DNA of 34,335 nucleotides. It comes from an uncultured Clostridia bacterium (lineage in GTDB: Bacteria > Bacillota > Clostridia > Christensenellales > Borkfalkiaceae). Each line of letters starts with the position of its first letter. The stretch's first letter is position 1. The notes under the pieces are model-generated. The model saw nothing but the letters and a program-made list of their open reading frames with translations, was not told the DNA's origin and did not search any database. This document shows positions 6,524 to 15,938 of this stretch, one piece after another. The stretch spans positions 1 through 34,335 of the forward strand of contig CALVUC010000018.1 of NCBI GenBank assembly GCA_944363395.1, given 5' to 3'. The position numbers were made by a program, and so were the translations under genes.

Positions 6524-7363
6524 CTAAAAAACGATCGTAATAACGTTGTTAATGAGTTTTACAGGCGGCAAGTCATTTGTGTAGCGCTTTAACCCGCAGC
6601 ACGCAAGCAACTCTTGCCAGCATTTGATTTTGTTATAGCGCATGATCACTTCCGCACAGCAAATTTGTTTGCTCCGTTTTTGATTGAACTCCTCTTCCGT
6701 AAACGGTTTGATCCGTTCATATTCTTTTGCAAAATCATGCAGAGAACTTTGTTTGTACGTCCTGCCCCGCGCCCTTTCCTTTTGCATCAACACAGGGCAA
6801 TGCAACTCGATCCAGGCATTGCGGCGCATTTTATAGCGATACCTATATATGTCTATAAAAGGCAGATAATTTTCTTTTTGATAATCTTCCTTCCTCGGCA
6901 AATATCCGTGAGAATCGAAAAACGTTTCCAATCCGTCGCTGATATTCTTCTCGTTCCATTTTGTCAGCGGATATTCCGACAAAATATCGCGGAGCTTCCC
7001 TGCGGCTTCGTCGTCCTCCGCCGCGACCTCGATCGCCATACGCAGAGCCTGCCGAATCGTTACGGTCGGCTCATAGTATGTAGGGAAGTTCCGCTCCATC
7101 CATTCGTGTGCAGTCATCTTGAACAGATACGGAAAGAGCGCGTGCGCGGGCATTCCGTCTTTCACCTTGAAATCTGTAACTGAGGGCAATCTTCCGTGAT
7201 CGCTCATAAATTGCTCCACACAGTCGCGGACTGTTCCTTCGCTCCACTTCACGAAAGGCATTGCGTCTGCTATTTCAGTGAGCTTTGCGACAAGATCCTC
7301 ATTTTGCCCTTTCTGAGCCCGAATTTTCAAAATCGCCTTGAAAATTGCCTGTTTTCGCGTCAT
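6524..7363 (-). CDS. Repeat protein resembling homing-endonuclease-associated repeats, inserted in sigG
   Basis: A start at 7363 (279 aa) follows AAAAGGGG by five bases, but the frame is also open upstream into the sigG fragment. Two long repeats are visible, residues about 1-95 and 100-190. Each has a helical first half, then 'KWSEGTVRDCVEQF' or 'KWNEKNISDGLETF', then 'HGRLPSVTDF' or 'HGYLPRKEDY', and finally a Trp-Glu near 'NFP' or 'HCP'. A third, weaker unit ends the protein ('CWQELLACCGLKRY'). The 'HG.LP...D' pattern with a following W resembles homing-endonuclease-associated repeats, which are DNA-binding. No nuclease motif is visible. It could bind DNA at the insertion; the function is unproven. 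Confidence 0.6.
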   Translation of the reverse strand: MTRKQAIFKAILKIRAQKGQNEDLVAKLTEIADAMPFVKWSEGTVRDCVEQFMSDHGRLPSVTDFKVKDGMPAHALFPYLFKMTAHEWMERNFPTYYEPTVTIRQALRMAIEVAAEDDEAAGKLRDILSEYPLTKWNEKNISDGLETFFDSHGYLPRKEDYQKENYLPFIDIYRYRYKMRRNAWIELHCPVLMQKERARGRTYKQSSLHDFAKEYERIKPFTEEEFNQKRSKQICCAEVIMRYNKIKCWQELLACCGLKRYTNDLPPVKLINNVITIVF

Positions 7364-7402
7364 AAATACCCCTTTTCGGGTATTTCGACGTCCTAACGTA
7401 TT

Positions 7403-7687
7403 CGGAACGGCATATGTCGAAAACCTGACGTGAAAGGAGAGATCGAACCCGTCGATCGCCTTGATGAGCCCCACGCAGCCCGCCTGGAAGAGATCATCCG
7501 CATTGGCGCTCTTTGCCCAGAAGCGCTTGACGAGAGAAAGAACAAGTCGCATATTTCCGACGATGAACGTCTCGCGCGCGGCGGCATCCCCCGCTTTGAG
7601 GCGCGCCATGAGCTCCTCGTTCTCTCTTTGGGAGAGTTTGGGAAGTCCGGACGTATCCACCCCGCAGATATTGACCTTGTGCAGCAT
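7403..7687 (-). pseudogene. sigG: sigG 5' fragment (sporulation sigma-G), interrupted after codon 95
   Basis: From ATG 7687, with GGAGGTGG at 7691-7698, the product opens 'MLHKVNICGVDTSGLPKLSQ', the sigma-G signature. It continues through region 1.2/2.1 ('NMRLVLSLVKRF') and region 2.2 ('DDLFQAGCVGLIKAIDGFDL') to 'RFSTYAVP'. The expected continuation ('IIGEIRRYLRDN', regions 2.4, 3 and 4; sigma-G is about 257 aa) is absent. At 7402 the frame passes into unrelated sequence and then the repeat protein. sigG sits directly downstream of sigE, its normal place. The fragment lacks -10 and -35 recognition and would be inactive unless the two halves are rejoined. The other half is not in this window. 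Confidence 0.85.
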
Positions 7688-7759
7688 ACTCCACCTCCGA
7701 GCGCAAGACCGCGCATATGTAGGCGCTGAGAGTATGCACATTTTACAGGAACCTATGTA

Positions 7760-9387: not shown

Positions 9388-10128
9388 ATGGACATATCCA
9401 ATGCGTCACGTTTTTTGCAAAGCTACAACCGTATCGAAGCGCACCTGAAACTCATTTACGGCGTAAAAGCGGCGATGAACTTTACGGACCTCGTAAAAAA
9501 ATGCAGCGACCAGGATATCACCGTGCGCCGCTATGCAACGGAACTCATCGATTACGGGAAACTGCGCAACGCGATCGTCCACCGCGGCGGATCCACAACG
9601 GAAGAGACGGTCATCGCCGTTCCCTGCGACGAAGTCGTACGCATGATCGAGTACATCGAAGCGAGCCTCTGCCGCCCGCCGCGACTGATCGACGCGATCA
9701 AGGTGAAGCCGGTCGGGTATGTCTTTGCCGATAAACCCGTCCTGTCCGCCGTGGAAACGTTCCGCGAAAAATGGCTCAAATCGCTCGTCGTGTACGATCA
9801 CGGAACGATGGTCGGCATCATCAATTCGTACGGCTTGTATGCCGAGATCGAGACAAGGGTGAAAGCGGGCAACGATCTCATGGAATTTTTCCTGCACACC
9901 CCCGTGCGCGACATCATGCACGAATCGGCGCTCGAGCGCTACGTCATTATGAGCCAGGACGCGACCGTCTTTGAAGTATTCGTCGCATTCGAGCAGAAAA
10001 AGAATTTGCTTGCCGTCGTCGTGACGGAAAACGGCGTATTCGGGGAAAAGGCGCTGAGCATCATCACCCCCTCTGATTTTCCCCGCATCAACCACTATCT
10101 CGAAAGTTATAACGCCAAACCGTTCTGA
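9388..10128 (+). CDS. HEPN-like domain fused to a CBS-domain pair (paralogue 1)
   Basis: 246 aa, with AGGAGG six bases before the ATG. Residues 1-95 are helical and contain 'KLRNAIVHRGG', where R60-N-A-I-V-H65 fits the R-N-xxx-H motif of HEPN ribonuclease-type domains. Residues about 105-240 form two CBS motifs: 'PVLSAVETFREKWLKSLVVY' with 'MVGIINSYGL', and 'ATVFEVFVAFEQKKNLLAVV' with 'ALSIITPSDF'. CBS pairs sense adenine nucleotides or related signals. The combination suggests a nucleotide-regulated RNA-binding or RNA-cleaving protein, which is inference. A clear paralogue is at 15199-15903. No antitoxin-like partner is adjacent, and the gene is followed by the large ncRNA candidate. Confidence 0.8.
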   Translation: MDISNASRFLQSYNRIEAHLKLIYGVKAAMNFTDLVKKCSDQDITVRRYATELIDYGKLRNAIVHRGGSTTEETVIAVPCDEVVRMIEYIEASLCRPPRLIDAIKVKPVGYVFADKPVLSAVETFREKWLKSLVVYDHGTMVGIINSYGLYAEIETRVKAGNDLMEFFLHTPVRDIMHESALERYVIMSQDATVFEVFVAFEQKKNLLAVVVTENGVFGEKALSIITPSDFPRINHYLESYNAKPF

Positions 10129-10212: not shown

Positions 10213-10240
10213 TTGACAAATGAAAAATCCATGCTATAAT
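10213..10240 (+). promoter_or_regulatory. Consensus sigma-A promoter driving the gene-free 10.25-10.93 kb transcript
   Basis: Perfect TTGACA (10213-10218), a 16-base spacer and perfect TATAAT (10235-10240), with an extended -10 TG at 10232-10233. It is the best promoter in the window, yet no credible protein-coding gene follows. Predicted start is near 10247. Confidence 0.85.
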
Positions 10241-10246
10241 AAAGGC

Positions 10247-10929
10247 ACAACAAGGGAGTAACCCAAAGGCAGATCCAAAACAACGGGACGGCAAAAGGAA
10301 ACTCAATAAAACCTTGTAAGAAATGAAATGGATCCTAAAATCCAAGTATTCTCTGCGGGACGATTTTCAAGCAAATCGGATACAAAGAAAGTAAGGTGAA
10401 ATGAAATTTCCAAAAGGCAATAAAAAGAGTGCTTTTGAAGGAAGGTTGCAAGGAACGGCGTTCCACCCGCAGACGTAAGTTTCGCGTACGGAAATCATCG
10501 GGAAAGCAAGTCTAAAGGAAGCTCCATTCGTTGCGTGGGTTTCACATCAAAGTTTCTTTTGAAAACCAACGTTTCGAAATTCCGATGGAAATTCAGATCG
10601 GAAGATCAAAAAAAGGAAAAATCCAAAGCATTCCTGCATTGATCGAAGAGATGAATGGAAAAAGGAGATCGAAAAAAGCGGAACTATTCGAAAGAATAGC
10701 AAAGCAAAATAGGTATCCCCCTATCGAGGTTGAAGAAAGGAACACGGTTTGGTAAAGGGAAAGAAAAATTTTATCGAAGGTCAGGGGTTCAACCAACAAG
10801 AACGAAAGGAATTTAGGTTGAAAAGTGTAAGTCGACCCGAGAATAAAGACTTTTCGGAATAACAAATCGGACAACGATGGGTAACGCCACGAAAATAGAG
10901 GCGTATCGCAAGATACGCCTCTTACTTTT
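10247..10929 (+). ncRNA. Candidate large structured non-coding RNA (about 0.68 kb)
   Basis: Bounded by a consensus promoter and an intrinsic terminator, with no credible reading frame between. The RNA is very purine-rich. Visible hairpins include cgattt/aaatcg (10361-10378), ggaac/gttcc with a 3-base loop (10452-10464), tccgat/atcgga (10581-10602), cattc/gaatg (10629-10657), ctattc-GAAA-gaatag (10684-10699), atagg/cctat (10709-10724) and ttcaacc/ggttgaa (10788-10822). Pairings acaagg(10250-10255)/ccttgt(10312-10317) and gatcc(10272-10276)/ggatc(10330-10334) would form a pseudoknot. Its size and style recall large bacterial RNAs such as ROOL, but I cannot assign a family. I see none of the core motifs of RNase P RNA or tmRNA. 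Confidence 0.6.
10897..10929 (+). terminator. Intrinsic terminator of the large ncRNA candidate
   Basis: An 11-bp perfect stem (agaggcgtatc at 10897-10907 and its complement at 10912-10922) closed by a GCAA tetraloop and followed by ttacttttg. On the minus strand the stem is followed by tattttcg, so it may work in both directions. Confidence 0.85.
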
Positions 10930-11074
10930 GCCCTCTCCCCCACCGTTCCCGCATCGGGACCGAATGTGTACATAAAAAATAGCCTTCCCTCGTCCCTCTG
11001 TCAAACACAGAGCCTCGTCGCGCTTATGAGCGATCGGTTTCTCCTGTATTCTGACAAAGAACACAGCGCTGCAA

Positions 11075-15200: not shown

Positions 15201-15903
15201 ATTCTTCGAGAAGGCGCAGAAGTTTGGGAAGATCGGCGCTCGTAAGAAGGTTGACGATCTCGTCGTTCGGATTGCCCGAAGCGGTGACGATGACGGCAAG
15301 CAGCTTTCTGTTCTCGTCAAAGGCGTCGATCGCCTCCTGTACCGTGTTTTTCTTCCCGAGCACCTTGTAAAAGCGCATCATGTCGCCCTCGTGAATGGCG
15401 CTGACGCAGGGCTGAGAGAGGTAGTCCCCGATCGGGTTGCCCTCTTCGAGCGCGCTGCCCATGCCCCTGACGAGACGGCGGTTGTTGAGCACGCCGATCA
15501 TCCGCCTGCCGTCATATACGGGCAGGTTGGAATAATTGGTGCGGGCGATGAGCATGACGGCGTCGCCGATGGTCGCCTGCGCGTCGATCCCCGTGACGTC
15601 CTTATCTTTGAGTTCGGAGAGCAGCGGCGGCGATTGCAGCAGATCGGCGACATGGCAGATGAGCTGCGTCACCTCGTCGCACGGTTCGGCAATGATGCGG
15701 TCGCGGCGGCTCTCATGTACGATCACGTTGCGCAGGCGGGCGCAGAGGAGCAGGTCCTCTTCGTACTTCTTCACCGTGCGGTTAAATTCCGCACAGCGTC
15801 TGACAAGGTCGGAGAACTGTAAATTTCCCTTGCCGCGGTAGATGGCGCGCATCCGCGCGTCGATGATGTTGTATGCGGAGATCAGATCCAACGCGTTTGA
15901 CAT
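15199..15903 (-). CDS. HEPN-like domain fused to a CBS-domain pair (paralogue 2), leaderless
   Basis: The start at 15903 ('MSNALDLISAYN') gives 234 aa and aligns with paralogue 1 at 9388. The HEPN-like segment holds 'RLRNVIVHESR', with R58-N-V-I-V-H63. The CBS part shows 'ATIGDAVMLIARTNYSNLPV' with 'MIGVLNNRRLVRGM', and 'NTVQEAIDAFDENRKLLAVI' with 'VNLLTSADLPKLLRLL'. No Shine-Dalgarno precedes the ATG. Instead TATAAT ends six bases before it, so the transcript should begin at the start codon. It lies 39 bases after the nitrilase-fold gene but has its own promoter. Function as a nucleotide-responsive RNA-acting protein is inferred. Confidence 0.8.
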   Translation of the reverse strand: MSNALDLISAYNIIDARMRAIYRGKGNLQFSDLVRRCAEFNRTVKKYEEDLLLCARLRNVIVHESRRDRIIAEPCDEVTQLICHVADLLQSPPLLSELKDKDVTGIDAQATIGDAVMLIARTNYSNLPVYDGRRMIGVLNNRRLVRGMGSALEEGNPIGDYLSQPCVSAIHEGDMMRFYKVLGKKNTVQEAIDAFDENRKLLAVIVTASGNPNDEIVNLLTSADLPKLLRLLEE

Positions 15904-15909
15904 GGCACT

Positions 15910-15938
15910 ATTATAGCACGGATGCGGCAAAAAATCAA
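15910..15938 (-). promoter_or_regulatory. Promoter giving a leaderless mRNA for HEPN-CBS gene 2
   Basis: TTGATT (15938-15933), a 17-base spacer and TATAAT (15915-15910), then AGTGCC and the ATG. The expected start, seven bases after the -10, is the A of the ATG. The whole element fits in the 39-base gap after the nitrilase-fold gene. Confidence 0.75.

Follow-up and report, generated by a model that had tools for sequence, protein, structure and literature searches.

A large structured RNA encoded beside a predicted HEPN-CBS ribonuclease gene in gut Clostridia of the Gallimonas group

Introduction

Large structured RNAs are rare in bacteria, according to excerpts of a published account (PMC11332333). 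The same excerpts describe OLE as a structured RNA of Bacillota, ~600 nt long, that works in a ribonucleoprotein particle (RNP), and an excerpt of a second paper reports palindrome switching in support of intermolecular contacts of OLE and GOLLD (PMC12286853). Among proteins, control of HEPN ribonucleases is a theme linked to Cas13 and to abortive-infection systems; in one such case, AbiF-RCd22, a HEPN protein is neutralised by a neighbouring RNA that binds AbiF, and the antitoxin RNAs of type III systems are short tandem repeats lying upstream of the toxin on one transcript (PMC12373285, in the parts used here). The sections of the HEPN survey on which we draw define the superfamily as a helical bundle whose third helix ends in an Rx4-6H motif, the R being followed by a polar residue; the conserved acid belongs to an Ex3[KR] motif and is placed in helix 2 (PMC3710099). 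They also record fusions of HEPN and CBS domains, with the suggestion that these regulate RNA stability in response to nucleotides (PMC3710099).

Here we describe a transcription unit in a stretch of 34,335 nucleotides (hereafter the window, meaning the whole stretch that was analysed) from a genome of 1.6 Mb in 60 contigs. An earlier note had read this locus as encoding a large structured RNA; that part of the reading stands, but it overlooked a linked upstream gene for a HEPN-CBS protein and the long-range architecture of the RNA. Judged from its sequence and that of its relatives, the RNA is an uncatalogued, folded molecule of ~650 nt carried by gut bacteria of the Gallimonas group. The explanation that we favour, and regard as moderately probable, is that this RNA of a new family acts with the protein encoded upstream of it, which would be an RNase that responds to nucleotides and that the large RNA controls within an RNP.

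Results

A transcription unit with its own promoter and terminator

The unit is delimited by three features:
10213..10240, plus strand: promoter TTGACA-N16-TATAAT with extended −10 (TG), matching the consensus at 12/12 positions
10247..10929, plus strand: large structured noncoding RNA (72 aligned RNAs including that of the window; no Rfam family; no codon periodicity)
10897..10929, plus strand: intrinsic terminator with stem 10897-10907/10912-10922, 11-bp arms 100% complementary, GCAA loop

The promoter is of the sigma-70 type, with TTGACA starting at 10213, a 16-nt spacer, and a TATAAT that is preceded by TG and ends at 10240. Six promoter-like sites occur in 5 kb (shuffled sequences have a mean of 2.1) and the site at 10213 alone scores 12/12. 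The perfect promoter with extended −10 and the 11-bp GCAA-capped terminator hairpin described in the earlier note are both exact, the latter with fully complementary arms; the U-tract directly 3' of the hairpin is imperfect (TTACTTTT). The 5' end of the RNA (10247) was placed from the promoter and the 3' end (10929) from the terminator.

All counts of relatives given here include the source genome, whose genus is referred to as g1. A DNA search of 101 genomes of this genus found the RNA in 20. The 20 copies align from promoter to terminator: TTGACA, a −10 box and the 5' end (G)CACAACAAGGGAG recur almost unchanged, and base pairing in the terminator is kept although the stem varies from one copy to another. 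Since promoter, 5' end and terminator recur in relatives, the unit is no chance arrangement, and the conservation of a consensus promoter suggests an abundant RNA. The unit would appear to yield a structured noncoding RNA, probably an abundant one.

Relatives of the RNA

A model built from the 3' part of the RNA (R1), in which the promoter is not included, detected the RNA in 27 of 103 genomes of the genus (28 copies) and matched 56 of the 301 genomes of the family, 53 of them at E<=1e-4. Relatives occur in two further genera of the same family (g10 and g8) and in a second family of the order (genus g98), and records of Candidatus Gallimonas that carry the RNA include gallistercoris, merdae, merdigallinarum and faecavium. 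A TTGACA/TANANT promoter lies <=900 nt upstream of the R1 match in 67 of 70 loci, that of the window included; the three weakest RNA matches (L131-L133, E 0.008-0.0096) are without the promoter and were excluded from later counts. The final set of 72 RNAs (28 from g1, 40 from g10, one from g8 and three from g98) consists of the 67 promoter loci, two more from g10 and three from the second family, and within it the R1 match ends 551-816 nt after the −10 box.

When the genome contigs were searched with the promoter pattern, 22 of the 29 stretches found had a strong R1 match and five had none; in L060 and L080 the sequence ends too near the promoter to judge. In a sample of the class (391 genomes, with few clades that have the gene) only the source genome passes E<=1e-60. 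One genome, G037, has a second, diverged RNA copy (L058 / L134, G037:C9) that lies beside ssb- and rpsR-like genes, named by eye, and not beside the HEPN-CBS gene.

A conserved fold with two predicted domains

The helices considered below are as follows:
10248..10533, plus strand: 5' domain closed by P1 (RNAalifold on 28 genus RNAs, pair counts on 20)
10248-10251/10530-10533 and 10255-10258/10522-10525, plus strand: P1, predicted in genus g1 only and not in g10
10352-10359/10466-10473, plus strand: P3, 99.4% paired with three double-change pairs in 20 genus RNAs
10361-10366/10373-10378, plus strand: hairpin P3a, just 59% paired in 20 genus RNAs
10479-10483/10491-10495, plus strand: hairpin P4, within the 5' domain
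10534..10891, plus strand: 3' domain closed by P5 (10534-10538/10887-10891 plus 10539-10541/10883-10885), 95.6% paired, 4/8 pairs with double changes
10746..10868, plus strand: most conserved arm, P6-P10, 30/33 pairs with double changes in 72 sequences
10746-10751/10863-10868 and 10758-10763/10850-10855, plus strand: P6 and P7, both supported by the tree-aware null
10769-10774/10843-10848 and 10779-10782/10834-10837, plus strand: P8 and P9, within the most conserved arm
10788-10794/10816-10822, plus strand: hairpin P10, within the most conserved arm

RNAalifold, applied to g1 and g10 separately, recovered P5 and the arm P6-P10 in both; the helix corresponding to P5 was thus predicted independently from the 40 g10 RNAs. 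On drawn structures that were both derived partly from the same sequences used to score them, 87.7% of the cells in the arm are paired across the 72 sequences, and the number of double-change cells there is 335 versus 116.7 +/- 11.7 in shuffles, none of 500 of which reached as high; shifting the partner by one column lowers pairing to 54-58%. Over the whole RNA in the 20 genus members, double changes occur in 34 of 75 pairs (105 cells versus 37.7 +/- 5.4), and in 6 of the 11 terminator pairs. P1a is invariant in the 20 genus RNAs and hence uninformative. Pairing in the 20-member genus alignment is poor for P6 (39%) and P9 (51%), as it is for P3a (59%), and P6 is shifted in register by one in the window relative to the alignment consensus.

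The earlier note had proposed a check of homologues for covariation, and this was run with a tree-aware test that supports a few pairs. Using a null in which substitutions are replayed along the tree, the 3' part of a sequence-only alignment of the 72 RNAs gave seven column pairs at E<=0.05; six of them are complementary and fall in P6, P7 and the terminator, and the seventh is non-complementary. At full length nine pairs reached E<=0.2, seven of them complementary, and the full-length pairs include a long-range one, 10276/10447, that is absent from the drawn structure. Power was limited within single genera, where the 28 g1 RNAs yielded one pair (in the terminator) and the 40 g10 RNAs two (3' part) or four (full length). 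The predicted fold is conserved on this evidence, with compensatory changes beyond a phylogeny-aware null at a few pairs. Local hairpins, which had been pointed out before, are present (P3a at 10361-10378, P4 at 10479-10495 and P10 at 10788-10822), but the supported fold is dominated by long-range helices that had not been listed. GGA occurs 3.3 times per 100 nt versus 2.6 expected from composition, a modest enrichment of the CsrA style.

The upstream gene encodes a protein with CBS domains and a probable HEPN domain

Two features describe the neighbouring gene:
9388..10128, plus strand: linked partner gene for a 246-aa HEPN-like + CBS protein (CBS E=1e-7), directly upstream of the RNA
9565..9582, plus strand: codons of R60-N-A-I-V-H65, an Rx4H motif typical of HEPN RNases, with R60, N61 and H65 invariant

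The presence of CBS domains in this protein is certain: the profile scores 32.6 bits against a cutoff of 24 (E=1e-7), and all 26 aligned members match it at E<=1. The HEPN_RiboL-PSP profile matches 22 of the 26 (best E 3.5e-4), with the window protein at 14.5 bits, below the Pfam cutoff of 28.4. R60, N61 and H65 are invariant in the alignment of 26 sequences and remain so with two paralogues (37-38% identical) added. In a full-length structure model (23 sequences) the N-terminus was poorly modelled; a model of the N-terminal 105 residues, with the two paralogues added, is helical (pLDDT 84), with helices at 4-24, 32-40, 50-63 and 81-95, and the Rx4H motif begins inside the third long helix (50-63) and runs past its end. 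In the model, R60-N61...H65, with its polar residue after the R, thus sits where the HEPN definition puts the Rx4-6H motif.

A Foldseek search returned nothing at E<=0.001; the top probabilities were 0.12, for 5yep_B (which we take to be a HepT-type HEPN toxin complex), and 0.11, for the sacsin HEPN domain 3o10_C. The protein profile had 14 matches among PDB sequences, none of them significant (best E 0.06). The invariant E17 and near-invariant K21 lie in model helix 1, and D34, in helix 2, is also invariant. The sub-threshold Pfam score, the absence of a significant Foldseek match and the position of E17 in helix 1, not helix 2, all weigh against the favoured explanation. Motif and model nevertheless make the partner a probable member of the HEPN superfamily and a predicted RNase.

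A paralogue of the HEPN-CBS protein (33% identical, with the motif in the form LRNVIVH) is encoded 5 kb away in the window, at 15202-15930 on the minus strand, and has no adjoining RNA unit according to the Rfam and ORF lists. Elsewhere in the window, at 6524-7741 on the minus strand, a sporulation-type sigma-factor gene, presumably sigG-like given its position beside sigE- and spoIIGA-like genes, keeps sigma-70 region 2 and continues into unrelated sequence after 'RFSTYAVP'. A motif search of the window did not find its second half. An insertion, perhaps of a mobile element, seems to have interrupted the gene.

RNA and gene occur together

In 57 of the 67 RNA loci a protein with LRNAIVH and CBS domains is encoded just upstream on the same strand, with 75-288 nt between the gene stop and the end of the −10 box in 56 of the 57 (no stop was met in L116). 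Such adjacency is seen in three genera of one family and one genus of a second. Co-occurrence is exact in the genus: RNA and orthologue (62-100% identical) are in the same 27 of 103 genomes and neither is in the other 76, 17 of which carry only a paralogue that is 34-40% identical. For the family of 301 genomes, with the RNA counted at E<=1e-4 and the protein at 360 bits or more, a cutoff set after the gap between 363 and 298 bits had been seen, the numbers are 52 with both, two with protein only, one with RNA only and 246 with neither; Fisher tests on such counts ignore relatedness and are not independent evidence. When the DNA behind the gene was inspected, both protein-only genomes proved to have a consensus promoter there, together with a divergent RNA that had escaped the genome scan (R1 E 3.3e-6 and 3.9e-6, with only these loci searched). 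In g98 of the second family the gene is likewise followed by a TTGACA promoter (−10 TACAAT, TAGAAT or TATAAT, the box being weaker in three of the four loci) and then by the RNA, with R1 matching three loci at E 2.2e-11 to 1.8e-6; the sequence of the fourth ends inside the unit.

At the remaining 10 of the 67 loci the gene is absent from the 201-1702 nt upstream that were examined (only 201 nt at L097). In nine of these ten cases the genome has an orthologue elsewhere, and in G218, G243, G247 and G295 an orthologue lies ~5-6 kb upstream on the same contig; G323, which is 75% complete, has the RNA and a paralogue only. Where the HEPN-CBS gene is missing or farther off, genes that by eye are ABC-transporter-like lie upstream of the RNA. 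Two g11 genomes have an intermediate homologue, and a search of the 900 nt that follow it found no RNA. One genome each of g5 (L142, G159:C23) and g12 (L141, G113:C7) has a promoter of similar type behind the gene and then a purine-rich stretch without genes, where R1 gives non-significant E values of 0.57 and 0.14; these stretches, possibly very divergent or replaced RNAs, were not counted as members. Divergent homologues in f18, f28, f29 and f32, covered by a partial scan for promoter-like motifs and ORFs, in some cases have TTGACA-like motifs behind the gene. At the g12 locus (L141, G113:C7, 1701-1892, minus strand) the HEPN-CBS gene is immediately preceded by a 6S-like RNA that scores 40.6 bits, short of the 46.4 cutoff.

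Co-occurrence and synteny with a neighbouring gene can also reflect shared descent. It is conceivable that a large RNA works here without the HEPN-CBS protein, for example in an RNA-only assembly as for ROOL, GOLLD and OLE, and that the neighbours have simply been inherited as a block. Such an RNA would fit the second copy in G037 beside other genes, the ABC-transporter-like genes upstream of RNAs that lack an adjacent HEPN-CBS gene, and the RNA-only state of G323. We nevertheless consider it rather unlikely, given the exact co-occurrence in 103 genus genomes, the adjacency in three genera and in one of a second family, and the fact that an RNA behind the gene was successfully predicted in the protein-only genomes.

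The same alternative draws on a self-complementary word found at one alignment column in 37 of the 40 g10 RNAs, which differs between lineages (CTGCGCAG in 18, CTGTACAG in 9, CTGCAG in 6, CTCGAG in 3 and CCTAGG in 1) and so resembles, by analogy, the palindrome switching of OLE and GOLLD contacts (PMC12286853, in the part cited above). A narrower palindrome pattern is present in 24 of the 40, versus a mean of 6.0 and a maximum of 12 in mononucleotide shuffles; both counts were made after the words had been seen and without correction for relatedness, and the relatedness of the g10 RNAs inflates them. Outside g10 a stricter search finds the palindrome more rarely (3/28, 0/1 and 0/3), and by itself a palindrome is no argument against a protein partner.

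The partnership of RNA and HEPN-CBS protein remains likely in our judgement. Against it count the ten of 67 loci without an adjacent gene, G323 with its paralogue only, the unlinked second copy in G037, the g11 intermediate homologues behind which no RNA was found, and the paralogues present without the RNA in 17 genus genomes.

We also weighed whether the pair could be a toxin-antitoxin system, with the HEPN-CBS RNase as toxin and the large RNA as antitoxin, in the manner of AbiF-RCd22 or of type III. A HEPN-like protein with an adjacent RNA under a consensus promoter invites this comparison, and AbiF-RCd22 provides the precedent. The RNA, however, is ~600-800 nt long, lies downstream and has its own promoter, and the repeats that a search of the window RNA turned up are 10-25 nt long and in two copies only, with no tandem array of 34-50-nt units, which leads us to reject membership of type III. 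PADLOC has no match for the partner protein, and neither the abiF motif nor any other Rfam model matches the RNA. A sequence search of phage records returned just a 34-nt piece over the promoter, in two records, and in the viral contigs searched the promoter pattern gave four stretches, none with an R1 match, and the protein profile no relative. A toxin-antitoxin pair is therefore unlikely, and we continue with the reading in which the RNA acts with, and would control, a nucleotide-responsive RNase.

The RNA matches no catalogued family

An Rfam 15 scan of the whole window found no family at gathering score, a permissive scan of the RNA region (E<=10) gave matches at chance level only, and in 12 related loci there were 12 matches at E<=1, none above its own cutoff and none to the abiF motif. 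The covariance-model search of Rfam that had been suggested for this locus has thus been run, with no match at gathering score. The source genome encodes RNase P RNA (276 bits) and tmRNA (133 bits) elsewhere, both above cutoff, together with a 6S candidate (46.1 bits, just under the 46.4 cutoff), and we rejected these three identities for the RNA of the window. A divergent ROOL, GOLLD, OLE, RNase P, tmRNA or 6S RNA, which length and style alone would recommend, is highly unlikely when neither the window nor the 12 related loci has an Rfam match above cutoff and the RNase P RNA, tmRNA and 6S candidate are located elsewhere in the genome. The idea that the RNA might be a divergent member of ROOL, GOLLD or OLE accordingly finds no support as homology, there being no covariance-model match. 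The companion suggestion of a large structured RNA, maybe of a new family, is supported by the lack of an Rfam 15 match and by paired positions that are kept as the sequence changes, and the RNA almost certainly represents a new large RNA family. In the part of the literature that was searched we found no such family in print, nor any Gallimonas noncoding RNA, and PMC11109978 mentions neither HEPN nor CBS.

The RNA region shows little sign of coding

Inside the unit there is a sense ORF of 74 codons with a TTG start (10531-10755), and an antisense ORF of 126 codons spans 10593-10973 on the minus strand. In-frame stops are absent from the sense ORF in only 5 of 27 aligned genus relatives. Among 28 genus sequences, the ratio of substitutions between the highest and lowest codon positions is 1.05-1.46 in eight windows along the RNA, whereas the HEPN-CBS gene, compared across the same genomes, gives a factor of 2.6-4.9 and is almost free of indels; the indels of the RNA are mostly no multiples of three. 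Because periodicity would show for either strand, the absence of a three-base periodicity argues against coding on both. The earlier claim that the unit holds no credible reading frame is borne out by this and by the in-frame stops in the sense ORF of most relatives, and codon-like conservation, which had been named beforehand as what would speak against an RNA, was looked for in the relatives and did not appear.

The longest sense ORFs of the RNAs average 82 codons versus 50.6 in mononucleotide shuffles, an excess that probably stems from the T-poor, purine-rich composition (median purine content 63%). Some of their translations match one another by blastp, one of them having as many as 13 matches. 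None of 27 relatives has a stop-free copy of the ORF with the most matches, and the ORFs differ in where they start and end, 56 of 72 beginning with TTG or GTG. A coding transcript or chance intergenic stretch, for which these longer ORFs and mutual matches might be cited, is exceedingly unlikely against the weak periodicity, the mostly out-of-frame indels, the stops in the best-matching ORF, the inconsistent ORF boundaries with their TTG and GTG starts, and the compensatory changes, which favour an RNA.

Discussion

As far as comparison of sequences can show it, the unit has its own promoter and terminator, a maintained fold and no codon signal, and co-occurs tightly and adjacently with the HEPN-CBS gene. 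A predicted RNase is the constant companion of the RNA, which makes an RNP the economical reading: the RNA probably forms an RNP with this predicted RNase, or controls it.

In the mechanism that we propose, the RNA would bind the HEPN-CBS protein. With P1 ending at 10533 and P5 beginning at 10534, the 5' domain (P1) and the 3' domain (P5) may stack end to end. The HEPN domain would be an RNase that the RNA holds in check or directs, and the CBS pair would sense adenine nucleotides and gate the RNase. A fuller version, in which a nucleotide-sensing HEPN-CBS ribonuclease is gated by a ~650-nt RNA of two domains, each closed by a long-range helix, that serves as scaffold and control element and self-associates through its palindrome in some lineages, is possible and is offered tentatively.

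The function of this RNA is open to direct test: there is a linked protein that hints at a mechanism, promoter and terminator are defined, the fold can be probed, and homologues are diverse and number in the dozens. A genuine partnership would bring a large RNA into the control of HEPN ribonucleases and would suggest an undescribed RNA-protein machine in gut Clostridia.

Among described systems, the HEPN-CBS fusions of Anantharaman et al. 2013 (PMC3710099) share the same domain combination, and differ in that the sections of that survey used here mention no RNA partner. ROOL and GOLLD resemble the new RNA in being large and structured, and the g10 RNAs have a possible self-complementary contact site; they differ in that no Rfam match links them to the new RNA, which was not found in the viral contigs searched. 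OLE, too, is a large structured RNA of Bacillota, with an RNP shown for OLE and proposed for the new RNA; in contrast, no covariance-model match connects the two, and the protein linked to the new RNA is HEPN-CBS and not an Oap protein such as OapC. OapA and OapB are further Oap proteins of the OLE RNP. AbiF/RCd22 of Clostridioides difficile likewise sets a HEPN-type protein beside a noncoding RNA, with RNA binding shown for RCd22 and proposed for the new RNA. RCd22 lies ahead of its gene and carries two abiF motifs of 36-37 nt, as described in the part of PMC12373285 used here, whereas the new RNA has no abiF model match, is long and lies 3' of a gene whose product carries CBS domains.
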